From contig NZ_LNTU01000001.1 in the NCBI RefSeq assembly GCF_001558695.1, positions 930,001 to 994,000 of the forward strand: 64,000 bases of DNA, given 5' to 3'. Below, one piece after another: positions 19,462-63,980 of the stretch. The translations under genes and the position numbers were made by a program. How positions within the stretch are numbered: the first letter of the stretch is position 1; every line of letters begins with the position of its first letter. This DNA is from Paramesorhizobium deserti (GTDB taxonomy: Bacteria > Pseudomonadota > Alphaproteobacteria > Rhizobiales > Rhizobiaceae). The notes beneath the pieces are model-generated. The model did no database searches, was not told where the DNA came from, and worked only from the letters and a program-made list of their open reading frames with translations.

Positions 19462-19476
19462 TTAACAAAAGGTTAA
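19462..19476 (-). promoter_or_regulatory. CtrA box
   Basis: The sequence is TTAA, seven bases, TTAA, an exact match to the CtrA consensus TTAA-N7-TTAA. It also forms the perfect inverted repeat GTTAAC-N5-GTTAAC. It precedes the 68-residue protein gene. Confidence 0.65.
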
Positions 19477-56592: not shown

Positions 56593-57486
56593 TTACGTCT
56601 GGCAGCGGGAGCAGAAGAAGGTCGAACGTCCGCTTTGCACGATGCGCTCCACCGTGCCACTACAGCCGGGCCGCGGGCAAGGTGCGCCTTCGCGGTCATA
56701 GACGGAAAAGCTGTGCTGGAAGTAGCCGAGCGTGCCGTCGGTCTGAATGTGGTCGCGCAGGCTCGATCCGCCCGCGGCGATCGCATCGGCGATGACATCG
56801 CGCACGGCGAAGGCGAGAGCCTCGGCCCTGGCGGCTTTGCGGCCTGTCGGCGTGGCGATGGTAGCCGCCTTGCGCAAGGGGGAGAGGCCGGCGCGCCACA
56901 GCGCCTCGCAGACATAGATATTGCCGAGGCCGGCGATGAGCCGCTGGTCGAGGAGAGCCGCCTTCAGTGGCGCCTGCCGGCCGGCGAAGAGGCCCGCCAG
57001 CAATGAGCCGCTCAACGCGTTGCCCGTCGGCTCGATGCCCAGCCCCTTCAGCATCGGGTGGCTGTCGAGCATTCCCGGCTCGGCCAGGGCCATGAAGCCG
57101 AAGCGCCGGGGGTCATTATAGATAATGCGTGCCGCGCCGCCGCCCTCGCGCTCGATATTCATGACGAGATGATCGTGCCGCGTGTTCTTCGAGCGGTCGT
57201 GGTGGAACGCTCCAGGCGTTTCAGCCCCGTCATCCAGTTCGATGCGGTAGGAGCCGGACATGCCGAGATGGCTGATGATGCAGAGACCGCCCTCGAGGTG
57301 GATCGTCAGATATTTGGCGCGCCGCCCCAGCGCCTCGATGCGCCGACCCGTGAGCCGCTCCACAAAATGCTCGGGAAAGGGAAAACGCAGATCGGCGCGG
57401 TTCTGCTCGACGGAAACGAGCCGCGCGCCCTCCATGACCGGCTGCAGGCCGCGCCGGACGGTCTCCACCTCCGGCAATTCAGGCAT
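56593..57486 (-). CDS. mutM: formamidopyrimidine-DNA glycosylase
   Basis: The 297-residue enzyme excises 8-oxoguanine. It begins [13 protein letters not shown] after the initiator Met, giving the catalytic Pro1 and Glu2. The helix-two-turn-helix region [18 protein letters not shown] and the C-terminal zinc finger ([13 protein letters not shown] through FFCSRCQ) are complete. The start overlaps the deoB stop by 8 nt. In many relatives the mutM neighbour is ubiE rather than deoB, so the arrangement here may be lineage-specific. Confidence 0.96.
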
Positions 57487-58714
57487 TCTGCACCGCGTCG
57501 TTCAGGAAATTCGTACCATGCCTGCCCCGGGGCAGGCCGAGATGGGCGGCGACGGTCTCGCCTATGTCGGCAAAGGTCGGCCGGATGCCGATCGTGCCCG
57601 CCCCCGCGCCATGGACCAGAACGGGCACGCGCTCGCGCGTGTGGTCTGTGCCCCTCCAGGTCGGATCGCAACCGTGATCGGCCGTCAGGACAAGGAGATC
57701 GCCCGCTTTCATCAGGGCAAACGCCTCGGGCAGCCGGTGGTCAAAGGCTTCGAGCGCGGCGGCATATCCCGGCACGTCGCGGCGATGACCGTAGAGCATG
57801 TCGAAATCGACGAAATTGGTAAACACCAGATCGCCGTCGCGCGCATCCTTCATCGCCTGAAGCGTGGCATCGAACAGCGCCATATTGCCATTGGCCTTGC
57901 GCACATCAGGCACGCCGCGATGGGCGAAGATATCGCCGATCTTGCCGACGCCAATGACATTACGCCCGGCCTCGGTCAGCCGGTCGAGGACGGTCGGTTC
58001 CGGTGGCGGCACGGAATAGTCGCGGCGGTTGCCGGTGCGCTGGAAGGTCGATGCCGTTTCGCCGGTGAAAGGCCGAGCGATGACCCGGCCGATATTGAGC
58101 GGATCGACAAGCTTCCGCGCGACCACGCAAAGCGCATAAAGGCGCTCCAGACCGAAATGCGTCTCATGGGCGGCGATCTGCAGGACGGAATCCGTCGATG
58201 TGTAGAAAATCGGCTTGCCGGTGCGGATATGCTCCTCGCCAAAGCGCTCGATGATCTCGGTGCCCGAGGCGTGGCAATTACCGAGCGTGCCCGGGATTTC
58301 TGCATGGCGAGCAATCTTTTCAAGGAGATCGGCCGGGAAGGCCGGGATTTCATGCGGGAAATAGCCCCAGTCGAAAGACACGGGAACACCGGCGATCTCC
58401 CAGTGGCCGGACGGCGTATCCTTGCCGCGCGAAATCTCCTCTGCCGCGCCCCACATGCCCCGCGGCTGCACATTGCCGTCAAGCCCTTCAGGAACCCTGC
58501 CCGTCGCCAGCTCCGCGGCCCTGGCAAGGCCGAGCGCGGTCAGATTCGGCAGCGCGAGCGGCCCCTTGCGCAAGCCTTCCCGGTCACCCGCGCCTGCAGC
58601 GCAGGCGGCAGCGATATGACCGAGCGTGTCAGCGCCCGCATCACCGAATTGTCCGGCATCCGGCGCGCCGCCGATGCCGAAGGAATCAAGTACGAAAAGG
58701 AAGACCCGTGCCAT
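57479..58714 (-). CDS. deoB: phosphopentomutase
   Basis: The 411-residue alkaline-phosphatase-superfamily enzyme interconverts ribose or deoxyribose 1- and 5-phosphates in nucleoside salvage. It has [32 protein letters not shown] with the metal-binding Asp, [38 protein letters not shown] and [19 protein letters not shown]. The ATG at 58714 begins the conserved N terminus; a TTG five codons upstream is less likely. Its 3' end overlaps mutM. Confidence 0.95.
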
Positions 58715-58825: not shown

Positions 58826-58840
58826 TTAACTCTTTCTTAA
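58826..58840 (+). promoter_or_regulatory. CtrA box upstream of the PhnD-like gene
   Basis: TTAA-CTCTTTC-TTAA matches the CtrA consensus exactly. It lies about 92 bp upstream of the PhnD-like gene in the pilus locus and 112 bp upstream of the divergent deoB start. Confidence 0.65.
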
Positions 58841-58931
58841 GATTTGAACCGGCAAGATCAAGTTCAGGGCGAACAAAGCATTGCCATCAAAGGGCAACCA
58901 ACCAAGTGGGCAACCATCGGGGATTTGGACA

Positions 58932-59861
58932 ATGCTTTCTGTGCTTTCGGCTCGTGCTCTTTCCAGAACGATATTTCTCGGCGCTATCGCCATCCTGGGG
59001 TTCAGCAGCCCCGCCGAGGCCGACTGGCGCAAGGAAATGGGGCGCTTCCGCATCGGCGTGGCGGCGCCGCGCGTGGCCGAGCTCAATCCCGCGGAGATCA
59101 GCAAGCTGAAATCGGCCTATGCGACGGCGCTGGGCGTGCCCGTAGACCTGGTGGTCCTGCCTGACATACCTGCCCTGATCGACGCGCAGGCGACCGAGCG
59201 CATCGACTACGCGATGGAGACCTCGGCCGCCTATGCCGCCGCCTATCTGGCCTGCGAATGCGTGGAGCCTCTGGTCGCCCCTGTCGGCACCGACGGCTCC
59301 CTCGGCATCCGCTCGATCCTGCTTGTGCGCCCGGGCGTCGATGCAAAGGACCTGAAGAACGCGGAGATCGCCCTGCCGTCCGATACGGCCAAGGCGGCGT
59401 CACTCGTTCCGGTCTCGACCTATATGCTGTCGGGCAAGGAAGCCGATGCTGCCCATGACAAATTCATCAATGCCGGGTCGCTCGAAAAGGCCGAAAAACT
59501 GTTCGCATCAGGCAAGATCGACGGCTTTTTCGGCTGGGTGCCGGCAAACGGAGCCGAAAAGCAGCCCCAGGGCGGAACGCTGGCGCGGCTTTCCGAGCAG
59601 GGGCTCGGTCAGGACAGCTATCGCATCGCCTGGGAATCCTCGCTTCTGCGCTACGGACCGCATGCCGTACGGGCCAATCTCGCGCCCGACGCGAAGCTGA
59701 TCCTGCGCCGTTTTCTGGTTTCACTCTCCACCAGCGATCCCGAAACCTACGATCTTATCGACCGGGTGCATGGCGGCGGTTTCGTTGCCGTCGGGACCCA
59801 TGACTACCGCCTGCCGCTCAAGATGCTCTCGGCCATAACCGGCCAGACGAAAGAACTTTGA
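58932..59861 (+). CDS. PhnD-like periplasmic substrate-binding protein in the pilus locus
   Basis: The 309-residue protein has a signal peptide (about residues 1-31, GFSSPAEA). Its fold is of the phosphonate/phosphite-binding PhnD type: FRIGVAAPRVAELNPAEISKLKSAYATALG, DYAMETSAAYAAAYL, VRPGVDAKDLKNAEIALPSDTAKAASLVP and DGFFGWVP. No ABC permease or ATPase is adjacent. Convergent TadE genes end 11 nt away and a CtrA box precedes it. A role in pilus function or sensing is inferred from location only. Confidence 0.82.
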   Translation: MLSVLSARALSRTIFLGAIAILGFSSPAEADWRKEMGRFRIGVAAPRVAELNPAEISKLKSAYATALGVPVDLVVLPDIPALIDAQATERIDYAMETSAAYAAAYLACECVEPLVAPVGTDGSLGIRSILLVRPGVDAKDLKNAEIALPSDTAKAASLVPVSTYMLSGKEADAAHDKFINAGSLEKAEKLFASGKIDGFFGWVPANGAEKQPQGGTLARLSEQGLGQDSYRIAWESSLLRYGPHAVRANLAPDAKLILRRFLVSLSTSDPETYDLIDRVHGGGFVAVGTHDYRLPLKMLSAITGQTKEL

Positions 59862-59872
59862 AAGCCTGCCGC

Positions 59873-60472
59873 TCAGCAACTCTGGCAGGCGATGGTTATC
59901 GAATTGATCGGCGCGAAGTAATAGGTTTCCGCGAGCGGGAGGCCGCCATCCATCGATACGATGTTGCGCATGCCCCATGTGGTGACAGGCACGTAGGTCA
60001 GCGCGACATCGACCTTTATGAGAAACGTATCGTTGGTGCGGAACCCCGAGGGGATATCGATCGTGCTGTTCTTCGGGTCCGGCGACAGCTTGCCGCTGGC
60101 ATATGACCAGGCGACGGTGGCCGGCGGATTGGCCGAAGGTGTCGAAGCGACCTGAATGGCCGTTATCCTGATACCCGGTTTGGCGCGATCATAGGGGAAA
60201 AGCGTGGCTTCCCCGATCTTCACGATATCGTCCAGTTGCGTCCTTGATACGCTCGATTGCTGGGCAGCGACGATATTGGCGATGATCCCGGCGGTCCGGC
60301 TGACATTCTTGTCGGTTTCGATGCCTTCGGTCAGGTCGATCGCCCCGAGATAGGCAAGGACAATCAGCGGCACGACCAGAACGAACTCCACCGCTGCGGC
60401 GGCAGATCTGTCGTCTTTGAACCGGCTAACAATATCCGCAAGCCTTCTCCGGCAGTTCTGAAATCTCGGCAT
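59873..60472 (-). CDS. TadE/TadF-like minor pseudopilin
   Basis: The 199-residue protein has a cytosolic leader, then SAAAAVEFVLVVPLIVLAYLGAIDLTEG, which is the type IVb pseudopilin start with Glu at +5 followed by a membrane helix. A periplasmic C-terminal domain of about 150 residues has two closely spaced cysteines at the very end (IACQSC). The residue before the predicted cleavage site is Ala rather than the usual Gly. GGGGGA lies 7 nt before the ATG at 60472. It follows the next TadE gene by 34 nt. Confidence 0.85.
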   Translation of the reverse strand: MPRFQNCRRRLADIVSRFKDDRSAAAAVEFVLVVPLIVLAYLGAIDLTEGIETDKNVSRTAGIIANIVAAQQSSVSRTQLDDIVKIGEATLFPYDRAKPGIRITAIQVASTPSANPPATVAWSYASGKLSPDPKNSTIDIPSGFRTNDTFLIKVDVALTYVPVTTWGMRNIVSMDGGLPLAETYYFAPINSITIACQSC

Positions 60473-60506
60473 ATCCGTTCCCCCAATCCCCATCCGCTGG
60501 ACGCTG

Positions 60507-61040
60507 TTATCGATCATCCGGAAAAGGTTCGTTCTGCCAGGTATTGGTGGCGAACAGCGGAAATCTACCGTCGCCGCCGGCGCTTTGCATTTGCCGGCGC
60601 ATGATGTCGGTCAGCAGAGGCCAACGATAGAGCACGTTAATCTGGTTGATCGACGTCGCGCCGCCTGGATCGACCGTATCGCCGAGACGCAGATGGCCCG
60701 TGGCATCGACGATGCCGCTCTTCGGCACACTTTCGTAGTTCGGATAGGTCTTGAGATTGGCGGAGAGTTCGGGGCAGCCCGCCGGCACGAAAATCTCCAG
60801 CCGCGCGCAGATCAAATCATGCAGCTTCCTGCCCTCCACATCCGTCGCCCTCAACTCGCCGGTGCGCAGCTGCCGTGCGATCCTGTCGGTCGTGTCCGAA
60901 AGGAGCTGCTGCCCCATGAAGCTGATGCAGACCTCGATGACCGAGAAAATGAGGATCATGAAGGGAAAGATCAGCACGGCGAATTCGACCGCCGTCGTGC
61001 CGCTGCGGTCGCGCCTGAAGCCACGCAACAAGGCGGCCAT
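60507..61040 (-). CDS. TadE family pseudopilin
   Basis: The 177-residue form begins MAALLRGFRRDRSG and continues TTAVEFAVLIFPFMILIFSVIEVCISF, a canonical Tad pseudopilin with Gly at -1 and Glu at +5. The periplasmic part has ICARLEIFVPAGCPELSANL. It probably primes or tunes Flp pilus assembly after cleavage by CpaA. The frame is open to an ATG at 61115; GAGGA before 61040 is rather far, so the start is uncertain. Confidence 0.87.
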   Translation of the reverse strand: MAALLRGFRRDRSGTTAVEFAVLIFPFMILIFSVIEVCISFMGQQLLSDTTDRIARQLRTGELRATDVEGRKLHDLICARLEIFVPAGCPELSANLKTYPNYESVPKSGIVDATGHLRLGDTVDPGGATSINQINVLYRWPLLTDIMRRQMQSAGGDGRFPLFATNTWQNEPFPDDR

Positions 61041-61264
61041 GCGCGCTGAAATCCTCAACCGTGTCGATTGCTCGTTGGCGGCCTCATTCCCCGCCGCAAA
61101 TCCCGCGCCCCGCATATCCCACTGCCCCTACCCTTTATTATGGCCGGGATCATAGGCACGGATATCTTGCTTTCCCGTATGAGCGAGACGTCAAATTCGA
61201 ACGGAAATATTCACGCTCCGTCAACCATGACGAGGGCGCGGAAACTGATCGCGATCTTCGATTG

Positions 61265-61681
61265 TCAATTGACGGCGCCACTGCCCTGATAGGCTTTCTC
61301 GCAGAATGGCGTGCAGGAGAGCATCTGCACGTCGGCACGGCGATAGACCCGCGTGGTCTTGGTATCATCGCGGCCGACGACGATCTGATCATCGACGATG
61401 GCGCTGCCGTCTGCATCGATAATAACGATATTGGTGACGCCGAAGCCCTTGCCGGTCAGCACCACGGTCCTGGCGTCCTGCACCACGGCATCGGCGATCT
61501 CCGGATTGCCGACGACGACCGTATCCGCCGGGCGCGCCAAACGCAGGACACGCGCCTGATTGGTGACCAGCTTGATGCCCTCATCGGCGGACGCGCCTGC
61601 CGTTCCGGCCAACGAAGCCATAAGAAAGGCCGAGGCCCCGACTATCGCGCCTCGCAAATCGTATCGCCCCTTATATGACAC
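61265..61681 (-). CDS. stand-alone pilus secretin N-terminal domain protein
   Basis: The 138-residue protein starts at a GTG (61681) with AGGAG at ideal spacing. It has a signal peptide (GAIVGASAFLMASLAGTAGASA) and then only the secretin-associated pilus N-domain (KLVTNQARVLRLARPADTVVVGNPEIADAVVQDARTVVLTGKGFGVTNIVIID) seen at the front of CpaC/RcpA. No secretin domain follows. The C terminus contains CTPFC, which could form a disulfide. It is divergent from pilA. Confidence 0.85.
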   Translation of the reverse strand: MSYKGRYDLRGAIVGASAFLMASLAGTAGASADEGIKLVTNQARVLRLARPADTVVVGNPEIADAVVQDARTVVLTGKGFGVTNIVIIDADGSAIVDDQIVVGRDDTKTTRVYRRADVQMLSCTPFCEKAYQGSGAVN

Positions 61682-62051
61682 GCGGTTTCTCCTGCCCCCG
61701 GTGGTTCCTGCCCGAAAATGAAGGAGATTGGTGAAGGAACGATTAAGCCGGTTCTCCCGTGGATCGACCCTTCTCATCGAGCTCGTCCAATAATGGCGAC
61801 GCACGAAATCCGGGAACATTCAGAAGCCCTAAAATTCGGGGGAAAAACAACAACCTTACGTTACTTCAAAACATCAGGAAAATATTTGCCTTGGATTAAC
61901 CAATTCCATGCAAGGGGCGGATTTACCTTTTCCTAAGGCTGTTTTTTAAGCCGATTGCAATTCCGTGCTTCTAGGTTCCGGCCATCCGATCAACGAGATC
62001 AAAAACAGTTGACGGGGTGCTGTAACAACAAAGATTTCAGGAGCCAAAAAC
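61682..62051. other. pilA upstream region
   Basis: This 370-bp stretch is AT-richer than its surroundings and has no gene. It must hold the pilA promoter and that of the divergent N-domain gene. A possible CtrA half-site TTAACC lies near 61897 and a TTGACG at about 62008, but I could not define a complete promoter. AGGAG is 9 nt before the pilA ATG. Confidence 0.5.
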
Positions 62052-62258
62052 ATGAAGAACCTTTTCGTTCGTTTCGCCAAGGATGAATCCGGCGCGACCG
62101 CCATCGAATACGGCCTGATCGCCGCCCTCATCTCCGTCGCCGTGATCGGCGGTGCTACCGTTCTCGGCAACAACATTGACGCGAAGTTCGGTAAGATCGC
62201 TACGACCATCGGCGGCGGCACAGACGACGACATCAACAAGGGCACGACGCCGAATTAA
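62052..62258 (+). CDS. pilA: Flp/Tad pilin
   Basis: The 68-residue prepilin has a short positively charged leader ending in DESG. The mature type IVb sequence ATAIEYGLIAALISVAVIGGATVLG follows, with cleavage after Gly and Glu at +5. The C-terminal part is short and hydrophilic (DDINKGTTPN). It is the major subunit of the Tad pilus used for surface attachment. AGGAG precedes the ATG and a hairpin follows the stop. Confidence 0.96.
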   Translation: MKNLFVRFAKDESGATAIEYGLIAALISVAVIGGATVLGNNIDAKFGKIATTIGGGTDDDINKGTTPN

Positions 62259-62278: not shown

Positions 62279-62307
62279 AATTGCCGCCTTTCATGTAGGC
62301 GGCAATT
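62279..62307 (+). terminator. hairpin between the two pilin genes
   Basis: AATTGCCGCCT and AGGCGGCAATT form a perfect 11-bp stem around a 7-nt loop. It lies 20 nt after the pilA stop. Only scattered T residues follow, so it may be a partial terminator that gives pilA excess over downstream genes. Confidence 0.7.
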
Positions 62308-62334
62308 ATCATTTCTGTTTCAGGATGCGCCTCG

Positions 62335-62502
62335 ATGACAGTTTTTAAAGCTCTTCTTCATGATCGAGCTGGTTCGGCTGCGGTTGAATACGGTCTGATA
62401 GGCGCACTCGTCTCGATTGCTATTCTTGCAGGAATCCTGCAGCTCGCCGCGAGCCTTAGTTTGGATTCCATCGCGACACTTGTTTCCGACGCGATGAAAT
62501 AG
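62335..62502 (+). CDS. second, very small Flp-type pilin
   Basis: This 55-residue open frame was found by reading the gap. It encodes MTVFKALLHDRAG followed by SAAVEYGLIGALVSIAILAGI, a type IVb prepilin with cleavage after Gly and Glu at +5. The rest is a 20-residue tail (LSLDSIATLVSDAMK at its end). It is shorter than pilA but keeps every feature needed for processing by CpaA. It lies between pilA and cpaA and is probably a minor pilin or an alternative subunit. Confidence 0.85.
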   Translation: MTVFKALLHDRAGSAAVEYGLIGALVSIAILAGILQLAASLSLDSIATLVSDAMK

Positions 62503-62538: not shown

Positions 62539-63060
62539 ATGATCGAAGCGGCCATTCTCATTGTGTTTCCTTTCGCGATGGCATTCGCTGCGGTCTCCGA
62601 CCTCCTGTCGATGACCATCCAGAATCGGGTATCGCTGATCCTGGTCGGCGCTTTCGCCGTTCTCGCGCCGCTGACCGGCATGGCATGGGATGTCTATTCC
62701 CTGCATTTCGCCGCCGGCCTTGCCATATTGGCAGTGACCTTCGGCCTCTTCGCCATCCGCGCCATGGGCGGGGGAGACGCCAAGCTGATGGCGGCGACCG
62801 CCGTCTGGTTCGGCTGGGATATCCAGCTGGTCGCCTATCTTGCCACGGCCTCCGTGCTGGGCGGCATGCTGACGCTGGCCATCCTGGCCTATCGCAGATC
62901 GCCCATCGCCGTCGTCGCGGGGCGCTTCGAGTTCATGCGCCGCCTGGCGCAGCACGATATCGGCATTCCCTACGGCATCGCGTTGGGTGCGGCCGGCCTT
63001 CTCACCTTCCCGCAATCCGCGCCCGGCGCCTGGGTTCTCGACCGGCTTTCATCCATCTGA
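62539..63060 (+). CDS. cpaA: prepilin peptidase CpaA
   Basis: The 173-residue membrane aspartyl protease has the two catalytic aspartates in AVSDLLSMTIQNR (helix 1/2) and AMGGGDAKLMAATAVW. It lacks the N-methylase domain, as expected for TadV/CpaA peptidases. It should cleave both pilins and the TadE-type pseudopilins. It lies 36 nt after the small pilin gene. Confidence 0.94.
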   Translation: MIEAAILIVFPFAMAFAAVSDLLSMTIQNRVSLILVGAFAVLAPLTGMAWDVYSLHFAAGLAILAVTFGLFAIRAMGGGDAKLMAATAVWFGWDIQLVAYLATASVLGGMLTLAILAYRRSPIAVVAGRFEFMRRLAQHDIGIPYGIALGAAGLLTFPQSAPGAWVLDRLSSI

Positions 63061-63108: not shown

Positions 63109-63173
63109 AATTACACGATTCCCGCTGCATGTTCGGCTCGCGTATTGGGGCGCAGTTGTGCAGGGTGGGAAAA

Positions 63174-63980
63174 ATGAGATCAGCACGCCTGGTCGTTCTG
63201 GCCGTCGCGGTCGTTGCCGCCGCAGGGGCAGGCTATATCGCGATGAGCATGTCGGCAGCGCCGCCACCCGTCGTCGAGACCGCCGCGCCCGCACCACAGA
63301 TCGAATTGCGGGATGTTCTCGTCGCCACCGAAAATCTCGGTGTCGGCACGGAAGTGCGCGACCAGATGCGCTGGCAGTCCTGGCCGGCCGAGGCGATCAG
63401 CGACGGCTATATCACGCGCAGCGCCGAACCGCAGGCTATGGATGAGCTCAAGGGATCGACCGTCCGGCTGCAGTTCATGGCGGGCGAGCCCATCCGCAAG
63501 GCCAAGCTGATCGGCCCCGGACAGAGCTTCATGTCGGCGATGCTGCCGCCCGGCATGCGCGCCGTGGCGACGCAGATCTCCGCCGATACGTCCGCCGGCG
63601 GCTTCATCCTTCCCAATGATTTCGTCGACGTGATCATGACGCGCAGGCAGGAGGGCGACGGCGGCGGGCGACGCTTCCTGACCGAAACGATCCTGGAGAA
63701 CATTCGCGTCCTGGCCATCGACCAGGCCATCCAGGAAGACGAAAAGGGCAACAAGGTCATCGTCGGCCAGACCGCGACGCTGGAAGTGACGCCGCAGCAG
63801 GCGGAGATCATTACGGTTGCGCAGCAGATGGCGGATCGTCTGAGCCTCGCGCTGCGCTCGACACTTGACGCGCAGGAGCCCGCGGAAAAGGAAGCCGACT
63901 ATCTGGTTTCAGCACCCGGGCGGCGCGGAACGGTGAAACTCATCAAATCGGGAACCGTGATTGAAGTGGGGGCGAAATGA
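63174..63980 (+). CDS. cpaB: Flp pilus assembly protein CpaB (RcpC)
   Basis: The 268-residue protein has an N-terminal membrane anchor (VLAVAVVAAAGAGYIAMSM), an SAF domain (about 45-115, VLVATENLGVGTEVRDQMRWQSWP) and the RcpC/CpaB block AVATQISADTSAGGFILPNDFVDVIMTR. It supports secretin assembly in the periplasm. The ATG at 63174 was chosen because the anchor begins immediately after it. The stop overlaps the next start by ATGA. Confidence 0.93.
   Translation: MRSARLVVLAVAVVAAAGAGYIAMSMSAAPPPVVETAAPAPQIELRDVLVATENLGVGTEVRDQMRWQSWPAEAISDGYITRSAEPQAMDELKGSTVRLQFMAGEPIRKAKLIGPGQSFMSAMLPPGMRAVATQISADTSAGGFILPNDFVDVIMTRRQEGDGGGRRFLTETILENIRVLAIDQAIQEDEKGNKVIVGQTATLEVTPQQAEIITVAQQMADRLSLALRSTLDAQEPAEKEADYLVSAPGRRGTVKLIKSGTVIEVGAK

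Follow-up and report, generated by a model that had tools for sequence, protein, structure and literature searches.

A stretch of 64,000 nucleotides from a Paramesorhizobium deserti contig, referred to here as the window, carries next to a Tad pilus locus a gene for a PhnD-like periplasmic protein that belongs to a real, well-marked subfamily, recognizable in sequence comparisons by two cysteines separated by one residue (CxC); the same comparisons do not demonstrate that its members are pilus proteins. We put it at slightly better than even that this is a vertically inherited, order-specific clade of orphan periplasmic proteins of the PhnD fold that no longer feed a transporter and would work instead as sensors or adaptors. 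PhnD-like proteins are usually annotated as parts of phosphonate transporters, a label that is probably wrong for the CxC clade, whose members have lost the transporter along with the anion site and carry an invariant pair of cysteines. With so clean a sequence marker, the clade allows one to ask directly whether Tad pili, or some other envelope task, have recruited a binding-protein fold.

The gene and its neighbourhood

The open frame extends from 58881 to 59861 on the forward strand, and the ATG at 58932 is taken as the start because the N-terminus of the resulting 309-residue protein then resembles a signal peptide, read by eye at about residues 1-30. In a Pfam profile search, PF12974 covers residues 61-292 at a score well clear of its cut-off of 27 bits (Table 1), while the more specific profiles TIGR03431, the PhnD equivalog, and TIGR01098 give 74.7 and 52.2 bits, below their cut-offs of 261.1 and 112.05. 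A phage origin of the gene was rejected, the protein having no match in PHROGs at E 0.01.

Table 1. Features around the CxC gene, in window positions
Feature	Position	Strand	Basis
deoB, phosphopentomutase; flanks the CxC gene on the non-Tad side and in relatives belongs to a nucleoside-salvage block	57479..58714	-	NF003766 550 bits
CtrA-type TTAA-N7-TTAA site, TTAACTCTTTCTTAA	58826..58840	+	exact match; between the divergent deoB and CxC genes
CxC-type PhnD-like periplasmic protein gene	58932..59861	+	PF12974 68 bits; CxC = residues 108-110
cpaK-like TadE-type pseudopilin gene, convergent	59873..60517	-	PF07811 20.0 bits, cut-off 22.9 not reached; placed beside cpaJ/cpaI/pilA
cpaJ-like TadE-type pseudopilin gene	60507..61115	-	PF07811 34.8 bits
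cpaI-like pilus protein gene	61265..61819	-	PF13629 76.1 bits
pilA, Flp pilin	62052..62258	+	PF04964 68.9 bits
cpaA, prepilin peptidase	62539..63060	+	PF01478 55 bits
cpaB/rcpC	63129..63980	+	TIGR03177 239.9 bits

On one side, the neighbouring genes make up a Tad/Cpa/Ctp type IVc pilus locus of the kind represented by cpa in Caulobacter, ctp in Agrobacterium and flp-1 in Sinorhizobium (S.) meliloti, and beyond the window end this locus continues with a secretin, CpaD, a CpaE-like protein, a T2SSE gene and two T2SSF genes. Judged by place, cpaJ and cpaK correspond to the cpaJ/cpaK genes that precede pilA1 in S. meliloti (PMC10934763); that paper gives the S. meliloti components, and 'substrate-binding' does not occur in its main text. 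Between pilA and cpaA stands another Flp-pilin-like open frame, a weaker one (62299-62499, forward strand, 33 bits), and loci L035, L036, L037, L056 and L057 have a second pilin frame as well. On the deoB side, fpg, ech, rpsT and dnaA were named by eye. Neither the deoB-dnaA side nor the cpa/secretin/T2SSF side showed an ABC permease or ATPase gene among the flanking genes, and no histidine kinase or response regulator gene adjoins the CxC gene, whose neighbours are deoB and the Tad genes. The layout described in the initial annotation, a PhnD-type periplasmic protein gene with no transporter nearby, 11 nt from convergent TadE-type genes (the gap between the two stops is 59862-59872) and with an exact TTAA-N7-TTAA sequence upstream, is thereby confirmed.

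This sequence pattern, which we take to be the CtrA consensus, is found twice in exact form in the window, where 0.05 occurrences are expected; the other copy lies at 19462-19476. The copy upstream of the CxC gene ends 91 nt before the ATG and could serve deoB or the CxC gene because it lies between the two divergent genes. All six loci of the genus have a box 76-97 nt ahead of the start, exact in four and one mismatch off in two; among the 39 clade loci outside the genus a single one, the AT-rich L045, has a box, with one mismatch, and 31 of these 39 loci use approximate starts. Over the 45 loci together, the expectation is 0.085 exact boxes, or 1.6 if one mismatch is allowed. L056 and L057 carry a differently placed pair of half-sites. 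The number of exact sites was rejected as evidence in itself, given 34 in the whole genome and 41 for the reversed control pattern. With six of six genus loci set against one of 39 others, and with no genome-wide enrichment, the sequences make CtrA control of the CxC gene plausible for this genus only, and the cell-cycle control first proposed survives as a property of the genus at most.

A two-cysteine clade within one order

In 41 genomes, that of the window and 40 relatives, all 14 hits at E 1.4e-23 or better lie in Tad loci and the weaker hits outside them, a count of weaker hits that leaves out L031 (E 4e-4). Two alignments of Tad-linked proteins, the first with 14 rows and the second with 42, show C108 and C110 to be invariant. 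The second, whose rows mostly share 24-40% identity with the window protein, also has Trp202 and Gly42 without exception; like the tree, it includes all of the 45 linked loci but L036, L057 and L117. Read directly in fetched loci, the CxC motif is present at all 45 Tad-linked and all five unlinked clade loci, in the top 30 hits of the order survey without exception, and at the motif place in none of the 25 generic PhnD-like loci of the same set. The CxC strings of L047 and L149 fall outside the motif column. A survey of the class found 41 genomes outside the order with a match, and none of the 26 loci fetched there has CxC; on this sequence evidence the clade is found, within the surveys of that class, only in the order of the window. 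The 50 fully read clade loci were picked for spread rather than at random, six of them from the window's genus, and the frames are open throughout the loci read, in eleven families.

In a quick tree of 52 CxC rows and 21 others, in which the generic rows stand for 15 of the 25 loci and four long rows were flagged, the CxC proteins form one clade with an SH-aLRT of 100. A survey of 397 genomes of the order places the clade in 102, about a quarter, counted by profile score down to 5e-74 with the addition of five lower-scoring genomes of family f39; genome G373, whose locus L123 has no CxC, scores between these two groups and was left out. Within the explanation that we prefer, the clade is inherited vertically and is specific to the order. 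Separately, the PhnD-like proteins without CxC at L141 (genome G800) and at L142-L144 and L146 (family f89, with genomes of 1.3-1.4 Mb) score high on the clade profile, at E 8e-61 to 1e-76.

A tight grouping with the PhnD of the source genome itself, named in the initial annotation as an outcome that would refute it, was rejected. That protein (253.6 bits) is encoded on another contig, C37, beside phnC and phnM, both read by eye, and beside the sole PhnE of the genome above the family cut-off, which leaves no spare PhnE; the two proteins separate in the tree, and the CxC protein as a query against its own genome gave no other match at E 0.001. Matches to PF12974 in the source genome number ten, and the A1 profile gives two, including one generic relative.

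Fold, pocket and proposed mode of action

The AlphaFold2 model of the protein has a mean pLDDT of 88.6, and its nearest fold is apo PtxB (Z 22.5, rmsd 2.9 Å over 249 residues). PtxB, HtxB and E. coli PhnD stand at Z 20-22, ArrX comes next, and then XAC2383 and AioX, at Z 17-19. With PtxB, HtxB and PhnD, the PF12974 binding proteins of ABC phosphite and phosphonate transporters, the window protein shares the two-lobed fold and a profile match (to PtxB, E 3e-28), and the clade retains their IWxS motif. It departs from them in that no permease or ATPase accompanies the window protein and that the clade has lost the STS and histidine of the pocket and fixed CxC.

The anion is held in PhnD by residues that we take to be S127, S129 and H157. 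Aligned with the PhnD of its own genome, the window protein has A153-K154-A155 and L184 at these oxyanion positions. STS is found in none of 47 clade rows, where SVA is commonest (11 rows) and Ser or Thr occupies both outer positions in six; the pocket histidine is kept in a single row and is mostly replaced by proline (25 rows). In contrast, Ser, Ser and His are retained in all seven generic rows, which represent seven of the 25 generic loci, and in the genome's own PhnD. All 47 clade rows have CxC and Trp202, the latter also present in the generic rows, while His244 occurs in 38 of the 47 and in none of the seven generic rows. Because the anion residues of PhnD are lost, the alignment makes oxyanion binding by the CxC protein doubtful.

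AioX and ArrX, arsenic-oxyanion sensors that serve a histidine kinase, likewise have the PhnD fold without a transporter, and one of them comes from a Rhizobium. The resemblance has limits: no kinase gene was seen beside the CxC gene, and the pocket residues Ser161, Ser163 and His192, as listed for AioX (PMC5908839), are retained there and lost in the CxC clade. In AioX, Cys106 links to the bound arsenite from the position of PhnD Gly65 (PMC5908839), whereas in the clade CxC follows a tyrosine belonging to the next conserved motif and sits where a helix ends. On the position given in that paper, CxC is thus probably not the counterpart of the arsenite cysteine of AioX, an idea that was rejected. 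In the model, CxC falls where helix 98-108 turns into strand 111-119, which would place it outside the cleft, as read from secondary structure and not from coordinates. The fold puts the protein among the PhnD-like proteins, and its probable mode of action recalls orphan sensors such as AioX; for each of the two groups it lacks some of the features that were checked.

The role that we favour is that of a non-transport sensor or adaptor, such as AioX and ArrX are. The changed cleft, with Trp202, Trp234, Ser236 and the His244 of the clade, may bind a ligand other than a phosphonate, or a protein; the C108-x-C110 pair might act as a disulfide or thiol, or as a metal site; and an inner-membrane partner encoded away from the CxC gene would register the state of the protein. 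The Tad genes would then be neighbours by old synteny, joint use with the pilus being possible and not required, and transcription in this genus would probably be under CtrA. No partner protein was found, so the sensor role is one of analogy. Two observations on the protein itself count against this explanation. His244 is variable, and TIGR01098 is exceeded by two of the six clade members scanned (L081 and L095, both unlinked to Tad genes, at 125.7 and 148.5 bits against 112.05), so not every clade member is remote from transporter proteins. With TIGR03431, the five members other than the window protein score 99-146 bits, and all six remain under the cut-off.

Linkage to pilus and salvage genes, and the alternatives it suggests

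The initial annotation asked for a comparison of the locus across the order, and the layout proved to be conserved, so that neither outcome named there as refuting came about. Tad genes are adjacent or within 3 kb at 45 of the 50 fully read clade loci, in ten families, and at 44 of these 45 the CxC gene is convergent with cpaK-cpaJ-cpaI; L098 (genome G190) is the sole Tad-linked locus of the set with the CxC gene and cpaJ/cpaK on the same strand. Measured between open frames and not called genes, the gap to the cpaK/cpaJ-like gene is at most 130 nt in 33 of the 45 linked loci, again in ten families, which also weighs against the preferred explanation; at L108 the cpaK/J-like hit is 914 nt away, yet cpaI is directly beside the CxC gene. 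The first order survey found cpaJ/cpaK in the 1.5 kb flank of 21 of the 30 best hits. Acetate kinase and phosphotransacetylase-like genes, identified by eye, lie between the CxC gene and cpaK at L106, L109, L110, L111, L113 and L120, and the second of them alone at L117, the carriers being family f40 and two f26 genomes; a pilus gene hidden in the f40 gap of 2.7-3.0 kb was rejected, since these are the genes that the gap holds.

The other flank often carries deoB, add and upp, and sometimes deoA, a nucleoside-salvage block, so part of the Tad linkage is regional synteny, and in many genomes the CxC gene lies where two old blocks meet. The gap is tighter on the Tad side than on the other flank, which could mean a Tad function. 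At several loci the Tad side stays adjoining while upp or deoB is 7-10 kb off or unseen within about 15 kb. A dedicated Tad accessory, that is, a periplasmic protein that would contact CpaJ/CpaK or the secretin and couple a ligand or redox state to assembly, is the possible but rather unlikely reading that draws on this neighbourhood, on its retention where the salvage genes are distant, and on the CtrA-type box of the genus, CtrA driving pilA1 directly in S. meliloti (PMC4433202). A more specific form of it is more tentative again and we think it unlikely: the CxC clade would be an undescribed, order-specific Tad accessory that responds to a ligand or to the envelope's thiol/redox state and signals to CpaJ/CpaK or the secretin, with cell-cycle control in the genus and a second, older envelope role kept where Tad has been lost. 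Searches of titles and abstracts returned no report of a PhnD-like protein in a Tad locus, which does not prove its absence in print.

The distribution of the clade speaks against an accessory of this kind. Among the 397 genomes of the order, 93 have both the clade and RcpC, nine the clade without RcpC, 246 RcpC without the clade and 49 neither, which gives an odds ratio of 2.06 (p 0.07, kinship ignored) and leaves 246 of the 339 RcpC-positive genomes without a hit in the clade range. The nine genomes, seven of genus g101 together with G328 and G182, are 98-100% complete and gave no RcpC match (E 1e-10), no TadE match (E 0.001) and no Flp pilin above the cut-off, five of them having Flp matches of 18.8-22.3 bits against a cut-off of 32.2. 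In G229 and G144, Tad-positive members of g101, the CxC gene is unlinked, the Flp genes being about 212 kb away in G229 and on another contig in G144, and on the tree the Tad linkage has changed at least three times. The mostly convergent orientation, moreover, sets the CxC gene outside the cpa operon. The genomes G157 and G063 of family f39 have RcpC and TadE and no Flp match at E 0.01; their Tad locus may have a divergent pilin or none at all, and Flp alone is for this reason a weak test.

The protein is retained by nine genomes in which no Tad genes were detected and missing from 246 of the 339 RcpC-positive ones, so it is not an obligate pilus part. Pairwise dN/dS is 0.10-0.42 in five of the nine, mostly higher than the 0.16-0.20 found within the window's genus, a point against the preferred explanation. 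Purifying selection on the gene in these genomes implies a role that does not need Tad. Of the pilus-linked role first proposed, the conserved linkage stands, and a role specific to the pilus is not supported as the main conclusion, in view of these nine genomes, of the many absences and of the salvage flank. Conserved linkage alone can mislead, since the obvious reading fails in the genomes where no Tad genes were detected.

The salvage flank suggests in turn a binding protein for nucleoside salvage (deoA-deoB-add-upp), perhaps for a nucleobase, a nucleoside or a sugar phosphate in the periplasm, which we consider improbable. Members unlinked to Tad genes do keep salvage genes near: deoB-add is directly ahead of the CxC gene on the same strand in five of the five Tad-less g101 loci (L080, L081, L082, L084 and L085), and add is found at L095, deoB at L101 and upp at L096, with upp about 3 kb off at L136 and about 15 kb off in the other two f39 genomes, G157 and G063. 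Yet deoA, deoB, add and upp all went unmatched in ten stretches, each about 15 kb long, from the non-Tad side of other clade loci (L201-L207, L210, L213 and L214), no nucleoside transporter was seen with the CxC gene, and old synteny may also account for the salvage block. A substrate-binding protein in decay, without any role today, is very improbable: the anion-binding residues are lost and dN/dS reaches its upper values in some Tad-less pairs, but the ratios in these genomes and in the window's genus, the invariance of CxC, Trp202 and Gly42 in 42 mostly distant rows and the open frames in eleven families all stand against it.

One further gene recurs on the salvage side. A retropepsin-like aspartic protease, its family (TIGR02281) checked in two loci, is frequent in the deoB-add-upp neighbourhood in this order, as at L118 (5266-5892), at L091 (4384-4989) and in many relatives.
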